IMG/VR virus record: IMGVR_UViG_3300036817_000169
Coordinates: 1 to 39,701 of that record
DNA length: 39,701 bases
Strand: one strand, 5' to 3'
DNA from: a virus
Shown here one piece after another: positions 2,206-21,109 of the stretch. A model generated the notes under the pieces. The model was not told where the DNA came from and searched no databases. It saw only the letters and a program-made list of their open reading frames with translations. A program made the position numbers and the translations under genes. Within the stretch, counting starts at the first letter, position 1. The number at the start of each line of letters is the position of its first letter.

Positions 2206-2501
2206 CGGAGCGCCAGCGCATCTATCGTGATCGCGACGGCGTCAGGCGCATCCTGCACTGGAACGACGAAGACCCCGATCAGGTCACCGTTCAGACCCAG
2301 CAGGACATCGAGCCGGTCCTCGCCAGCGTCGCCCGCGACCGCCAGATCATGGCGAACAACGGTCCCAACCGATTATTGGCCCGCCTGCCGGTCGAAGTCT
2401 ACGAGCGCGCTTGCCTTGAGCAGTGGGGCGAGGACGACTGGGCGCGCTATCTCAATTCAAGCGAATGCGAACCGTTCAGAATTTGGCGCGGGAATGTCTA
2501 A
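2202..2501 (+). CDS. Conserved small phage protein of the head module
   Basis: A 99-residue acidic protein starting at TTG 2202, which overlaps the stop codon of the HNH gene; GGAGG at 2192-2196 supports this start. It contains many Trp, Asp and Arg residues (HWNDEDPDQ near the N-terminus, WGEDDWARYL and FRIWRG near the C-terminus). I recall proteins of this shape next to capsid genes in other podovirus-like genomes, but know of no function. A head-completion or decoration role would fit the position; this is inference. Confidence 0.7.
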   Translation: MTERQRIYRDRDGVRRILHWNDEDPDQVTVQTQQDIEPVLASVARDRQIMANNGPNRLLARLPVEVYERACLEQWGEDDWARYLNSSECEPFRIWRGNV

Positions 2502-2513
2502 CAGGAGGTTGAA

Positions 2514-2786
2514 ATGAGGTTTGGCAAGAACAACAACGGCGGCAACGGCGGCTTCGGCTCCGACAATCTGCCGACGAAGAAATCCGCCCCCGGCAGCACC
2601 AACGGCGGTCGGCTCGCCGGGCCGTCGCCGGGCCGCTTCGGCGGCAATGGCGGCAACGGCAACGGCAACGGCAAGGACGGCGGCATCGGCGGCGGCGCTG
2701 GCCGGGCCGCCCCAACCATGCGCGGCATCCCCAAGGACGACCACGACCGAATGCTCGAACGCTGCCTCGGCAAGCCTCAGCGTTGA
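2514..2786 (+). CDS. Gly/Asn-rich small protein
   Basis: A 90-residue protein with a very good ribosome site (AGGAGG about 8 nt before ATG 2514). The middle third is Gly/Asn repeats of the GGNGGNGNGNG kind. A more ordinary C-terminus (HDRMLERCLGK) follows. The low-complexity body suggests a flexible linker-like structural protein. Function unknown. It is co-directional with the head genes and probably co-transcribed with them. Confidence 0.65.
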   Translation: MRFGKNNNGGNGGFGSDNLPTKKSAPGSTNGGRLAGPSPGRFGGNGGNGNGNGKDGGIGGGAGRAAPTMRGIPKDDHDRMLERCLGKPQR

Positions 2787-2866
2787 GCCCCGTCACATCC
2801 CCTTCACCCTGAAGGCCAAGGACAACCAAGCCCGCCAATTCCGGCGGCACATGAGGAGCGCACCCA

Positions 2867-3466
2867 ATGCCGCAAACCTATCTTGTCGTCGTCGAGCCGA
2901 TCACGGCGGGCTGGCCCCCGCCCCAGGTGATGCCGCCGATCTACTACCCGCCGCCGGGTGGGGGTGGTGGGATGCCGCCGACCTGGGGCGGTGGCGGCCA
3001 ACCCTATCCGCCTGGGAGCGGCGGTGGCGGCGGGCCTGGGCAGCCGCCCTATCCCTCGCACCCGATCCCTCCAGGCGTGTGGCCGCAGCCTCCTGGCGGC
3101 GGCGGTCAGCCCCCGACCTGGGGCGGTGGCGGTCAACCTCATCCGCCGGGCGGCGGCGGCGGCCCCGGTTGGGCGCCGCATCCTGAGCACCCGATCCCTC
3201 CCGGCATTTGGGGCGGAGCGCCGGGTGGCGGAGGTCAGCCTCCTGGCATCTGGGGCGGCGGCAATCAACCCGGCACCATGCCCCCGATCTATATGCCGGG
3301 CGGCGGCACTGTGATGCCGCCAATGGATCCGGGCGGCGAACCGACGCATCCAATCGAAATCCCGCCCGGCTCATGGGTCATGCCGCCGCACCCTGACCAA
3401 GGTCTGCCCGACAGCGGCAACACGCCGAACAATGAGCTGCCGGAGACGCCGGAGCCGAAGGAGTAA
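2867..3466 (+). CDS. Pro/Gly-rich repeat protein
   Basis: A 199-residue protein preceded by GAGGAG. After a short ordinary N-terminus (MPQTYLVVVEPI) it consists of imperfect Pro/Gly repeats of about 12-20 residues (units such as GGGGQPPTWGGGG and HPIPPGIWGG), and ends in an acidic tail. The opposite-strand frame is open for most of this length, a by-product of the GC-rich repeats. Likely an extended virion surface or linker protein; no enzymatic motif is visible. Its stop codon overlaps the next start (TAATG). Confidence 0.7.
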   Translation: MPQTYLVVVEPITAGWPPPQVMPPIYYPPPGGGGGMPPTWGGGGQPYPPGSGGGGGPGQPPYPSHPIPPGVWPQPPGGGGQPPTWGGGGQPHPPGGGGGPGWAPHPEHPIPPGIWGGAPGGGGQPPGIWGGGNQPGTMPPIYMPGGGTVMPPMDPGGEPTHPIEIPPGSWVMPPHPDQGLPDSGNTPNNELPETPEPKE

Positions 3467-17241: not shown

Positions 17242-18420
17242 TCACGCCGCCTTTACCACTTTGAGGCGTCCGCGCCCCATCTTACGCGCGGCGCGGATCG
17301 CCGCCGCCTTGCCCTCGAACTCCTGCACGTAGTTCTGGCACCGTTCCAGCGTGTCGCCGAGGATCGCCTTCAACGCCTCGACGCCAAGCCCCTGCTCAAG
17401 CAAGTGCGTGGCGACGTAATGGCGCATGCCGTGCGCGGTGCATTCGGGGACGCCGATGTCGTCGCAGGCCCGGCGCATCAGGTTCGAGAAGTGGCCAGCC
17501 GAGATGGGCGCCCCGCCATCAAACTCGGAACCGACGAACGTCGTCGAGCCCAGAACACCGGCCTTCTTGGCCGCATCGAGCGCCTTCCTCAGATTGGGCG
17601 GGATCGGCGCCCAGGCGTCCTTGCCGGTCTTCTGCTGCTTGATCAGCATCATCTCGACCTTGTCGCCCTCATCGTCGTCGTGCAGCGAGATATGCTGCGG
17701 CCCCATGCGGACGATGTCGCAGCAGCGTTGGCCGGTCAGGAGCAGTTCGTACATGACGCGGGCGCGCGTGCCGTAGGCGTAGGTCGCCTCGTACTTGTCG
17801 CACTCGACCTCGCTCCACTTATGGCGAGCCACTGACGTATGCTGCTTTCGCTTGATGCTGTCGCAGGGATTGATCCAGTCCTTATCGAACAACTCCTTCT
17901 CCTCATCGGCCCATTTGTACATGCCGCGCACCGCGCTGATGAGCTGATTGGCCGACGCCTTCGCGGGTTTTGGGTTCGCCGGGTCCGAGCCGAACTTCGC
18001 AATGTGGTCGCGGATGTCTTTCAGGTTCTTCGGTTGGACCTTGCTGTAAGACACGTCGCCATGCGCGGCGGCCAGCCGTTTGAGGAGGTTGCGATGGCCC
18101 TTCTGAGTGTTTGGCTTGAACTCGGCGAAGTTGTCTGAGCTGATGTACTCGTTGACGAGCCAGCGAAGGCTCGTCGGATCGTTAGGCTTAAGCATCGGCA
18201 GAGCGTCGGCGACGCGCACACCCCGGCTGGCGTCGGTTAACTCCTGCCAGAACGCGACCGAGCCGGGCGCGTTTTTCATTTGGTGATAGACGTCGGGCGC
18301 CCGGTAGACCCAGATCGGCTTGCCGTGCCGGGTAATCTCAGCGCGCAGGCCTTTCGGCACCCTGCGCCCAAAGAGCTGTCTGCAATGGTCGTTTGTGATC
18401 TTACGTGATTTCGGTTCCAT
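17242..18420 (-). CDS. int: Tyrosine-recombinase integrase
   Basis: A 392-residue phage integrase that joins phage and host DNA at the attachment sites. Catalytic residues can be placed: Arg232 in TGQRCCDIVRM, a Lys in the following beta turn (QQKTGKDAWAPI), His330-x-x-Arg333 in HGMRHYVATHLLEQG, and the nucleophile Tyr364 in RCQNYVQEFE. The N-terminal half carries the arm- and core-binding domains. The ATG is preceded by the AACTGGTAAGGGAA element, which contains the stop codon of the upstream gene. It is the last gene of the reverse operon that begins with the ERF protein, so its expression is probably tied to that operon. Confidence 0.95.
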   Translation of the reverse strand: MEPKSRKITNDHCRQLFGRRVPKGLRAEITRHGKPIWVYRAPDVYHQMKNAPGSVAFWQELTDASRGVRVADALPMLKPNDPTSLRWLVNEYISSDNFAEFKPNTQKGHRNLLKRLAAAHGDVSYSKVQPKNLKDIRDHIAKFGSDPANPKPAKASANQLISAVRGMYKWADEEKELFDKDWINPCDSIKRKQHTSVARHKWSEVECDKYEATYAYGTRARVMYELLLTGQRCCDIVRMGPQHISLHDDDEGDKVEMMLIKQQKTGKDAWAPIPPNLRKALDAAKKAGVLGSTTFVGSEFDGGAPISAGHFSNLMRRACDDIGVPECTAHGMRHYVATHLLEQGLGVEALKAILGDTLERCQNYVQEFEGKAAAIRAARKMGRGRLKVVKAA

Positions 18421-18642: not shown

Positions 18643-18922
18643 CAGGAGCCTCCAGGGCGGCCCGCAGCAGGAGCCGACCGCGTGTGGCCTCATCAGCCTC
18701 GCCCCCATCGCAATCGGCCCTGGCGAGGCTGGGAAGGGGAATGTCGGCCTCCGGCGGCAGCGGCGCCACGAAGGGGGCTTCGTGGCGGACATGAAGGGGG
18801 CTTCGTGTCGGAACGCCGCAGCTCTGCCGCCAGGGATAGTGCCAGCGGCTATACAGGTGGCATGCCTTCGCCTCGACCGGCGTCGTCGCCAGAACCATCA
18901 GGGCGATAGCGAGCGACCTCAT
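18632..18922 (-). CDS. Small secreted protein
   Basis: A 96-residue protein with an N-terminal signal peptide (MRSLAIALMVLATTPVEAKA, likely cleaved near residue 18), then CHLYSRWHYPWRQSC with two Cys that could form a disulfide. AGGAG precedes the start. Inside the gene the segment GAAGGGGGCTTCGTG is repeated in tandem. I recall similar small exported proteins in rhizobial prophages, without function. It overlaps the methyltransferase stop by 4 nt. Confidence 0.65.
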   Translation of the reverse strand: MRSLAIALMVLATTPVEAKACHLYSRWHYPWRQSCGVPTRSPLHVRHEAPFVAPLPPEADIPLPSLARADCDGGEADEATRGRLLLRAALEAPDAH

Positions 18923-19938
18923 CGGTGCAGCTCCTGCGCGGCTTCACGAAAGGCGATTACGAAGCAAGCCGCGACCTGCGGGACGATGGCGTTGCCGTAG
19001 CCCCGCAGGCGTCCCACTCTGGCGGGTAGCCCATGAGCCAGCAGACGAAGGCCGGGTTTAACCCGCCGGGCTTTGCCGTCGGCTCCGACGAGCCATCTGG
19101 CGTCGTCCCAAAAGCCTCCGTCTGAAGGCTTGCTCCGCCCGAATGACTGAAGCTCGGTCCTGTCCAGTTGTTCGTTCGCGGCGTCGGCCACAGGCTCCTC
19201 GACCCGTTCGATGTCTCCCGCACGCCCGCGATCACGTCGATCTTCCGGCTGAAGTCCGTGCCGCCCGCTTCGTTGTAGCCGTTCTGCGTCGGCGTCCCCG
19301 CCATCGGCGTCGGCCACAGCGATCGACCTGAATACAGAACCACTTCGGACAGGTTCTTTTGATGCCCTGCTTGATGTCTCGTCAGCGCCTTCGCTGGGTC
19401 CGTATATTCGCCCCCGCCCTCCGTCCGCGCGTTGGGCGTCGGCCACAAAGAAGATGCGCTCCCTCCGGTGCGGCGCCCCGACACTGCAAGCTGGCACAAT
19501 GGCGGCCCCGACGGCATATCCACTTGCCTCCAGGTCAGCGCGCACTCCGGCGAACCATTCCCGTCCATCCGCGCTCGCAACCTGTTCTCCAAAGAGCCTT
19601 GCAGGGCGGCGCTCGGCGACGAGGCGGTAAAAAGCGGGCCAGAGGTGTCGTTCGTCGACATGGCCCTTTCCTTGTCCAGCGACCGAAAGCGGCTGACAGG
19701 GTGGGCTTCCGGTCCAGACCTCTTCGTCTTCGGGCCACCCGGCGAGCGAGAGCGCGTAGGGCCAGCCGCCGATCCCGGCGAAGAAGTGGCAGCGCCGGTA
19801 GCCTCGGAGATCGTCTCCCCGAACATCGATAATTGAGCGGTCATCCACATCGCCTTCCGGCAGCAGTCCCGCCACGATCAGGGTGCGCAGCCACGCCGCC
19901 GCAAACGGGTCATGGTCATTGTAATAGTCCCCGCTCAT
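18919..19938 (-). CDS. DNA (cytosine-5)-methyltransferase
   Basis: A 339-residue enzyme that adds a methyl group to C5 of cytosine. The conserved motifs are present: FAGIGG (residues 53-58, SAM binding), SPPCQ with catalytic Cys81, the EQV variant of the ENV motif (118-120), HRRERI (157-162) and, near the C-terminus, GYGNAIVPQ (about 313-321). The stretch between motifs VIII and X, the target-recognition region, has three VADA repeats. There is no cognate restriction enzyme, so protection of phage DNA against host restriction is the likely use. It is coupled to the HNH gene by ATGA. A second long frame runs inside the gene. Confidence 0.92.
   Translation of the reverse strand: MSGDYYNDHDPFAAAWLRTLIVAGLLPEGDVDDRSIIDVRGDDLRGYRRCHFFAGIGGWPYALSLAGWPEDEEVWTGSPPCQPLSVAGQGKGHVDERHLWPAFYRLVAERRPARLFGEQVASADGREWFAGVRADLEASGYAVGAAIVPACSVGAPHRRERIFFVADAQRADGGRGRIYGPSEGADETSSRASKEPVRSGSVFRSIAVADADGGDADAERLQRSGRHGLQPEDRRDRGRAGDIERVEEPVADAANEQLDRTELQSFGRSKPSDGGFWDDARWLVGADGKARRVKPGLRLLAHGLPARVGRLRGYGNAIVPQVAACFVIAFREAAQELHR
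18957..19844 (-). CDS. Overlapping ORF nested in the methyltransferase gene
   Basis: A 295-codon frame lying wholly within the methyltransferase gene, same strand, other frame. From ATG 19844 (GGAAGG about 8 nt upstream) it reads as a coherent protein: QLSMFGE, RSGPEAHPVS, SPECALTWRQVDMPSGPP, three SLWPTP repeats, then LNPAFVCWLMGYPPEWDACG and a Ser/Arg tail. I recall very similar proteins (LWPTP repeats, WLMG(F/Y)PPEW) annotated in many phages beside or inside cytosine methyltransferases. I cannot check whether they are translated; they may be conserved only because the methyltransferase frame is. No function is proposed. Confidence 0.5.
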   Translation of the reverse strand: MTAQLSMFGETISEATGAATSSPGSAAGPTRSRSPGGPKTKRSGPEAHPVSRFRSLDKERAMSTNDTSGPLFTASSPSAALQGSLENRLRARMDGNGSPECALTWRQVDMPSGPPLCQLAVSGRRTGGSASSLWPTPNARTEGGGEYTDPAKALTRHQAGHQKNLSEVVLYSGRSLWPTPMAGTPTQNGYNEAGGTDFSRKIDVIAGVRETSNGSRSLWPTPRTNNWTGPSFSHSGGASLQTEAFGTTPDGSSEPTAKPGGLNPAFVCWLMGYPPEWDACGATATPSSRRSRLAS

Positions 19939-20285
19939 CTGTGGGGCTCCTGTTTGATCCGATAGCGCCGCGCGATCTCGCTCGGCCCGGCCTCGATGGG
20001 ACGGTGCTTGCCTTCCAAGCGTTTCGTCTTGGCGATCTCCCGCACGTCGCGCCGGGTCTTCCGGTCATGGCAGGGGAGGCAGAGCAGCTTGCCGTCCTCG
20101 GCGGCGAGCGGCAGCCGGGCGTCGCCCACCGGCTGCATGCCTTCCGGCACGCAATGGTCGATCTCGTAGTCGGCCCGCGTCGGGCATTCCGCGCCGCACA
20201 GCTCGCACCAGGTGCGCCCGCTGAGATCGGTGGCGCGGGTCTTGATCCTGCGCGCCGTCGCCGCCGAGAACGAGATGCGGATCAT
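19935..20285 (-). CDS. HNH endonuclease
   Basis: A 116-residue protein with a classical HNH fold: CELCGAEC, then YEIDHCVPEG (catalytic Asp-His), then LLCLPCHDRKTRRD. The four Cys bind structural zinc. ATG 20285 is chosen for its ATGA overlap with the PP-loop gene stop; GTG 20294 is an alternative. It lies between the PP-loop enzyme and the methyltransferase. It may be a phage nuclease acting in recombination or packaging, or a restriction partner; the small size favours the former. Confidence 0.85.
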   Translation of the reverse strand: MIRISFSAATARRIKTRATDLSGRTWCELCGAECPTRADYEIDHCVPEGMQPVGDARLPLAAEDGKLLCLPCHDRKTRRDVREIAKTKRLEGKHRPIEAGPSEIARRYRIKQEPHR

Positions 20286-21109
20286 AACCCGCACATCCCT
20301 TCACACTCATGGATGAATAGGTTCAGTTGGCCGTGGTCCTCGGCGGTCGAAAGATCGACTTGGTCGAGCGGCACGCGCTTCGGATGCATGAACTGCTGCG
20401 CCTGCCGCAGGCGGGCGCCCTTGTCCTTGTCGATCGGCTCCCGGATCGCCTTGTCGATGGCGACGGCGTCGGCCCATTCGTCAGGCCGGTTGTCGCGCAT
20501 GTCGCGCCACATCGCGTTGTTGCGAAAGGGGCAACCGATGCAGCTCGACTTCGGCGGCTCAGGGTAGCCGAAATCCTTCAGCCATTTGAGACACTCCCAG
20601 CGGTTCATGCGCGCCTCAAGCAGCGGGAAGCGCCGAACCTCGAATTTCACTTTCGCTGGCGTGGCCCTGATGATCTCGTCGACCGAGATGCCGATCCACT
20701 TCTCGACCGAACCGGGCGCCATGCGGTCGCGCGGCCCCTTGCCAAGCAATTCGCGGACCTTCTTGTCGATGGGCTCGATCTTGTAGTTGCCGGTGCATTG
20801 GCGACGCCCAATGCCTTCCTTGTTACCCGCGTACTTCAGGTAGAACGGGACGGTGACGAACCACCCGACGCTCTGCCTTGGGCGCGTTCGGGTCAGCAGA
20901 TCATCGCGAATGTTGCCAGCGGTGACGATGTGGACCGGGAACGGCAGGACGCCGACGAGCCAGTCCAGATGGGCGTAGACCGCCTTCGGCTCCCAACCGG
21001 TGTCGGCGAAGATGGCGCAGTCGGGCATCGGCGTGATCTCGCCATGCGCCGCCATCAGCGCCATGGTGGTGGACTGGACGCCCGCGCCCAGGCTGAGAAC
21101 CCTGATCAT
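20282..21109 (-). CDS. PP-loop ATPase / PAPS reductase-like enzyme
   Basis: A 275-residue protein of the adenine-nucleotide alpha-hydrolase (PP-loop) superfamily: SLGAGVQS (residues 6-13) is the phosphate-binding loop, followed by IFADTGWEP. Later Cys residues (RRQCTGNYKI, CIGCPFRNN) could hold a sulfur or metal. PAPS reductase-like proteins in phages are sometimes linked to DNA modification, for example DndC-type sulfur insertion; here the neighbours are a DNA methyltransferase and an HNH nuclease, but no other dnd genes are visible. Function on DNA is an inference. Coupled by ATGA to the gene upstream. Confidence 0.78.
   Translation of the reverse strand: MIRVLSLGAGVQSTTMALMAAHGEITPMPDCAIFADTGWEPKAVYAHLDWLVGVLPFPVHIVTAGNIRDDLLTRTRPRQSVGWFVTVPFYLKYAGNKEGIGRRQCTGNYKIEPIDKKVRELLGKGPRDRMAPGSVEKWIGISVDEIIRATPAKVKFEVRRFPLLEARMNRWECLKWLKDFGYPEPPKSSCIGCPFRNNAMWRDMRDNRPDEWADAVAIDKAIREPIDKDKGARLRQAQQFMHPKRVPLDQVDLSTAEDHGQLNLFIHECEGMCGL

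Follow-up and report, generated by a model that had tools for sequence, protein, structure and literature searches.

The window, i.e. the whole stretch of 39,701 nucleotides of viral DNA that was analysed, carries on its minus strand a coding sequence for a C5-cytosine methyltransferase of 339 residues (18919–19938; PF00145, E 2.5e-17; phrog_363, E 6.3e-75), henceforth alpha. Wholly inside this coding sequence, and in the +1 phase relative to it, lies an uninterrupted minus-strand frame of 295 codons (18957–19844; phrog_1008, E 3.3e-27), henceforth beta, which begins ATG ACC GCT CAA and is preceded, 8 nt before its ATG, by the Shine-Dalgarno (SD) sequence GGAAGG (19853–19858, minus strand). 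An in-frame ATG two codons upstream of that at 19844 gives a 297-residue form (18957–19850), and an internal ATG at 19661, preceded by AAGGAAAGGGCC and by the SD-like AAGGAAAGG (19665–19673, minus strand), gives a possible short form of 234 residues (18957–19661, minus strand). The nested ORF contains SLWPTP three times (19434–19448, 19305–19319 and 19179–19193 on the minus strand, from the protein's first copy to its third) as well as SPECALTWRQVDMPSGPP and LNPAFVCWLMGYPPEW, and the WPTP codons coincide with the codons of VADA repeats in alpha, the copies of the DNA repeat being located at 19179, 19305 and 19434. An earlier note on this DNA had pointed to the 295-codon frame on the same strand within the methyltransferase gene, to its GGAAGG, to the three repeats with both further segments, and to the identity of the SLWPTP repeats with the VADA repeats of the other frame; each of these is found as described.

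The stop codon of an HNH-domain ORF (19935–20294, minus strand; PF01844, E 3.1e-5) overlaps the methyltransferase start, suggesting from its position that the two may be translationally coupled. A 275-residue ORF (MIRVLSLGAGVQSTTMALMAAHGE...) at 20282–21109 (minus strand) has no Pfam match at E 0.01; in Pseudomonas phage Riah, too, a gene found upstream of the methyltransferase is annotated as a member of the phosphoadenosine phosphosulfate reductase family. Downstream of the methyltransferase, a tyrosine integrase is encoded (17242–18420, minus strand; PF00589, E 3e-10), and a temperate phage or prophage is thus likely.

In ordinary C5-methyltransferases, motifs I–VIII are followed by the target-recognition region, motif IX and motif X. 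Alpha meets the criteria for a C5-cytosine methyltransferase, exhibiting motifs I, IV (PCQ), VI, VIII (RxR) and X along with the large-domain fold; its motif VI reads GEQV rather than ENV. Motifs I–VIII, placed by alignment and matches to PDB structures, occupy residues 49–170 (19429–19794, minus strand), and motif X reads GYGNAIVPQ (18976–19002, minus strand). The AlphaFold2 model is confident for residues 1–170 and 320–339 and matches M.HhaI (Z-score 16) over 177 of 327 residues. Residues 180–275 (19114–19401, minus strand), opposite which beta carries two of its WPTP repeats, form a low-confidence linker (pLDDT about 30–50) that is predicted to be disordered. Moreover, no LTPREcaRLqGFP-like stretch is found in alpha ahead of motif X, while the ordinary C5-methyltransferases of our negative-control set carry motif IX in frame. 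The alpha chain hence does not satisfy the criterion of holding both motif IX and a target-recognition domain, and we classify it as half of a split enzyme and not as a complete single-chain one, because motif IX is missing and residues 180–270 are predicted to be disordered.

Beta itself has no Pfam or NCBIfam match, and the PHROG families that profile the nested frame (1008, 31772 and 27243) are named only ‘DNA methyltransferase’ or unknown. Modelled alone, it yields a structure of low confidence (pLDDT 61, pTM 0.29), for which a fold search returned no match among solved structures; matches among predicted viral proteins include some labelled methyltransferase, and the model is too poor for these to be interpreted. 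One segment, LNPAFVCWLMGYPPEW (19014–19061, minus strand), is nearly invariant in beta and located at the place matching motif IX: its best local match in ordinary single-chain methyltransferases is motif IX, e.g. LTPRECARLMGFPDTF. This profile match spans only 17 columns (P 0.0017 for a single comparison). This short match, together with in-frame fusions in relatives (see below), meets the criterion of a motif IX residing on a second, smaller polypeptide.

Loci from phages and from bacterial genomes were collected with the methyltransferase profile alone, and the nested frame was scored as open when a +1 ORF covered at least 60% of the gene. Such an ORF is present in 79/79 phage methyltransferases and in 78 of the 79 prophage methyltransferases from bacterial genomes. 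The phage +1 ORFs have a median length of 307 codons, compared with 159 after shuffling of synonymous codons within each gene, and the +2 frame of the phage genes shows nothing comparable. The +1 frame stays open at a GC content of 0.45–0.50 (Aragogtheria, Lc-Nu, Paenibacillus Fitz) and likewise in distantly related methyltransferases from phages of Paenibacillus, Lactobacillus and Nodularia. In contrast, 15 ordinary single-chain C5-methyltransferases, taken as a negative control from 12 bacterial genomes that also carry a phage-type gene, lack a long +1 ORF: their runs span 13–39% of gene length, none beyond chance, versus 87–99% for the phage-type genes of the same 12 genomes. The earlier note had named frequent nested-frame stops across related methyltransferases as a refutation; such stops are not observed. 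Its mention of near-identical proteins in many phage genomes was overstated, since the closest phage-record relatives of the nested protein share about 36% identity over most of its length.

A DNA search with the beta motif retrieved 119 contigs, nearly all of which have a methyltransferase in fixed phase. Only two (L307, L283) seemed to encode the nested protein without a methyltransferase, and both candidates fell: the former is a fragment at a contig edge whose motif X lies in the usual frame, and the latter proved, when more sequence was included, to be a rearranged methyltransferase locus (L519). In Pseudomonas phage Riah (L003), both frames are present at 2236–3138, and the record annotates neither. 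Judged by these sequence surveys, the arrangement recurs in phage and prophage methyltransferases of many bacterial groups, and is mostly unannotated in its second frame.

It could be proposed that GC-rich codons and a conserved methyltransferase keep the +1 frame open although nothing is translated from it, and the window is indeed GC-rich: after codon shuffling the longest +1 run still averages 168 codons, and for the window alone the observed open run of 306 codons reaches p = 0.008 against synonymous-codon shuffles, the evidence from relatives being far stronger. Yet this proposal fails to explain the choice of synonymous codons. Across 150 loci, in whose selection the nested frame played no part, conserved alpha residues opposite conserved nested residues use one codon almost exclusively, e.g. 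GCT for A301 (130/131; expected 24), GTG for V308 (131/132; expected 26), GTT for V293 (115/115; expected 31) and TTT for F116 (104/110; expected 27), so that nested residues are preserved. The normal synonymous variation in the methyltransferase frame that would also have counted against an overlapping gene is therefore absent. Likewise, counting estimates of dN/dS over 22 independent clusters are lower for the nested frame (N region 0.63, 0.54–0.72; middle 0.56, 0.44–0.68; C region 0.50, 0.37–0.63) than for the +1 frames of neighbour genes (0.88; 0.77–0.96). When one adds that the frame stays open at moderate GC content, that ordinary C5-methyltransferases lack such an ORF, that the nested sequence is retained in loci whose methyltransferase frame contains many stops, and that its start codon is associated with an SD sequence, an untranslated by-product becomes barely tenable. 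The nested ORF is almost certainly, as far as sequence evidence can tell, a real second protein-coding frame and not a consequence of GC-rich codons. The p-values treat the sequences as independent and ignore their kinship, which leaves this conclusion unaffected because the effect sizes are large; a codon-shuffle similarity test that also raised the +2 frame was therefore left out of the choice of frame.

The constraint is unevenly distributed along the gene. Synonymous constraint is weak at alpha residues 1–100 and strong at 101–180 and 281–320, and since it is weak there we claim no function for the N-terminal part of the nested protein encoded before about alpha residue 100. In the middle region, the alpha frame is nearly free (dN/dS 0.87), and substitutions by codon position (.31/.14/.17) are in excess at the alpha first position, i.e. 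the third position of the nested frame. The nested frame contains 313 WPTP-type motifs, compared with about 19 in shuffles, and the alpha position facing the W varies freely among V, L and M; hence, it is WPTP and not VADA that drives the repeats. The suggestion that either frame could be driving conservation thus receives an answer that differs by region: the methyltransferase frame drives it along motifs I–VIII, where nested constraint joins in from residue 101 or so; the nested frame does so across the central VADA/WPTP stretch; and at the C terminus both do. Taken with the open frames and near-fixed codons, this supports the proposal of an overlapping gene that is conserved and may be linked to modification, while a role as subunit of the very same enzyme was not part of that proposal.

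Signals for initiation of the nested chain are likewise under selection. At alpha residue D38, the codon GAT, which creates a +1 ATG, is used in 102/142 loci (expected 53), and an SD sequence precedes this ATG in 54/99 loci, versus 3/86 loci without the ATG; this enrichment of ATG with SD at the early site in relatives supports the GGAAGG-preceded start of the window. A second site near motif IV, corresponding to the ATG at 19661 in the window, also pairs a start codon with an SD sequence, and both are enriched there. Since an SD sequence is recognisable at any one site in only about half of the loci, the start codon remains uncertain; the short product of 234 residues would hold all of the strong constraint, which begins at around alpha residue 101. 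Translation of beta in this particular phage is inferred. In five loci (L039, L045, L064, L065, L068), the alpha frame is broken by a frame change near residues 80–92, not far from where the nested ORF has its motif-IV start site; the break may reflect a pseudogene, a sequencing error or a programmed shift.

Rearranged relatives reveal that the segments of the two frames have been fused and separated. The nested profile matches in frame within the single-chain methyltransferases of the mycobacteriophages ShiLan and Starcevich and of L006, the WPTP/motif-IX match reaching E 2e-12, 2e-10 and 5e-6, respectively. In L519, the alpha frame stops shortly past motif VIII, and the nested frame is 502 codons long and takes in the WPTP repeats as well as motifs IX and X. 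L263 and L349 share this layout, and the alpha frame of L254 is closed in the same manner. Because the alpha frame is closed or full of stops in these four loci, the nested sequence cannot owe its conservation there to the methyltransferase. L338 and L342 carry motifs I–VIII, WPTP and motif IX in one common frame and motif X in another. More generally, the viral contigs L338, L342, L245, L255 and L316 exhibit motifs I–VIII, WPTP with motif IX, and motif X in differing relative frames, the switch being located close to a G-rich run that follows motif VIII; these represent natural frame exchanges.

Given a genuine second coding frame, its product might still reach the enzyme by another route or have nothing to do with it. 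Programmed frameshifting could join frame 0 (motifs I–VIII), frame +1 (WPTP and motif IX) and again frame 0 (motif X) into one chain, which would accord with the canonical order of the segments, with their presence in a single chain in ShiLan-type enzymes, and with the location of frame changes in relatives near the G-rich run past motif VIII. However, two shifts would be required in the window, and we regard this route as improbable since nested constraint sets in at alpha residue 101, before any position at which a shift would be useful, and since start signals, i.e. start codons with SD sequences, are selected. No more probable, and if anything slightly less so, is that beta is a real overlapping protein of unrelated function, such as a regulator or a counter-defence protein, that came to lie in a methyltransferase gene by chance. 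Its lack of Pfam, NCBIfam and fold matches leaves room for this; on the other hand, the phase with the methyltransferase is fixed in nearly all of the 119 contigs, the beta segment is fused into the methyltransferase chain in relatives, beta continues into motif X in L519, L263 and L349, and its conserved motif resembles the very motif IX that alpha lacks.

We consider it very probable, in the absence of expression or activity data, that the locus encodes a split C5-cytosine methyltransferase from two overlapping frames, with beta having its own ribosome-binding site and a function that is inferred. Alpha (frame 0) would provide the catalytic large domain with motifs I–VIII and with motif X at the C-terminal end. 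Beta (frame +1), starting at a ribosome-binding site inside the alpha gene, would contribute a conserved helix-hairpin, the WPTP-repeat region and the motif-IX-like segment, and is most likely the small DNA-recognition domain absent from alpha, that is, the missing half of the same enzyme. The two chains would then assemble into an active enzyme; their physical association, the role of beta in target recognition and methylation by both chains together are all inferred.

Two-chain C5-methyltransferases have been described. M.EcoHK31I from E. coli (specificity YGGCCR; Lee, Kam and Shaw 1995) consists of a large polypeptide with motifs I–VIII and X and a small one with motif IX (PMC3404938). The window's large chain likewise has motifs I–VIII and X and lacks motif IX, with a motif-IX-like segment on the small chain. 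The small polypeptide of M.EcoHK31I is, moreover, said to be translated from a different reading frame of the large-chain gene. M.EcoHK31I is, however, a restriction-modification enzyme, whereas the type found here is encoded by phage and prophage genes and is broadly distributed among phages; furthermore, the target-recognition region of M.EcoHK31I is predicted in the large chain, whereas constraint on this region in the window resides in the small-chain frame. M.AquI (CYCGRG) is a naturally split C5-methyltransferase with motifs IX and X on its small chain (PMC3404938), which resembles L519, L263 and L349, where the target-recognition region, motif IX and motif X lie in the second chain. The window differs in that motif X is part of alpha and beta is wholly nested, so that it does not qualify as M.AquI-type. 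The best reading of the nested ORF is that of the beta subunit of a split enzyme of the M.EcoHK31I/M.AquI kind, with no comparison to the small subunit of M.EcoHK31I having been made.

Within phages, both frames are annotated in Kagunavirus K1ind2, as ‘C-specific methylase’ and ‘putative Mte8-like protein’, with a start offset of 88 nt identical to that of the window's 297-residue form; no function is given for the latter protein in K1ind2 or other Kagunavirus members. An out-of-frame HNH insertion in phage methylase genes has been reported for ShiLan (PMC11855218), which likewise places an out-of-frame protein inside a phage methylase gene. That case, however, concerns a mobile HNH endonuclease, while the nested ORF of the window is a fixed component of the methyltransferase gene; a Pfam search detected no HNH domain in it, and nesting of the HNH type is ruled out. 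In the open literature searched, we did not find a description or explanation of the present nested arrangement in phages, and its scale as well as the overprinting of the target-recognition region appear to be new.

It is a reasonable, if less secure, extension that a large share of the ‘DNA cytosine methyltransferases’ of phages and prophages are two-subunit enzymes with a universally overprinted specificity subunit, that the disordered middle of alpha is a by-product of this overprinting, and that the segments I–VIII, target-recognition region with motif IX, and X have switched frames several times in evolution. If true, many annotated phage and prophage methyltransferase genes represent, as annotated, only half an enzyme, and specificity assignments as well as clonings of the large ORF alone would fail for this reason. 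In length and spread, the overlap would then also rank near the top of the same-strand overlapping genes of bacteria and phages, and would have a clear functional reason, namely that two chains make one enzyme. The system also offers hundreds of natural variants in which selection on each frame, and the fusion and fission of segments, can be traced.
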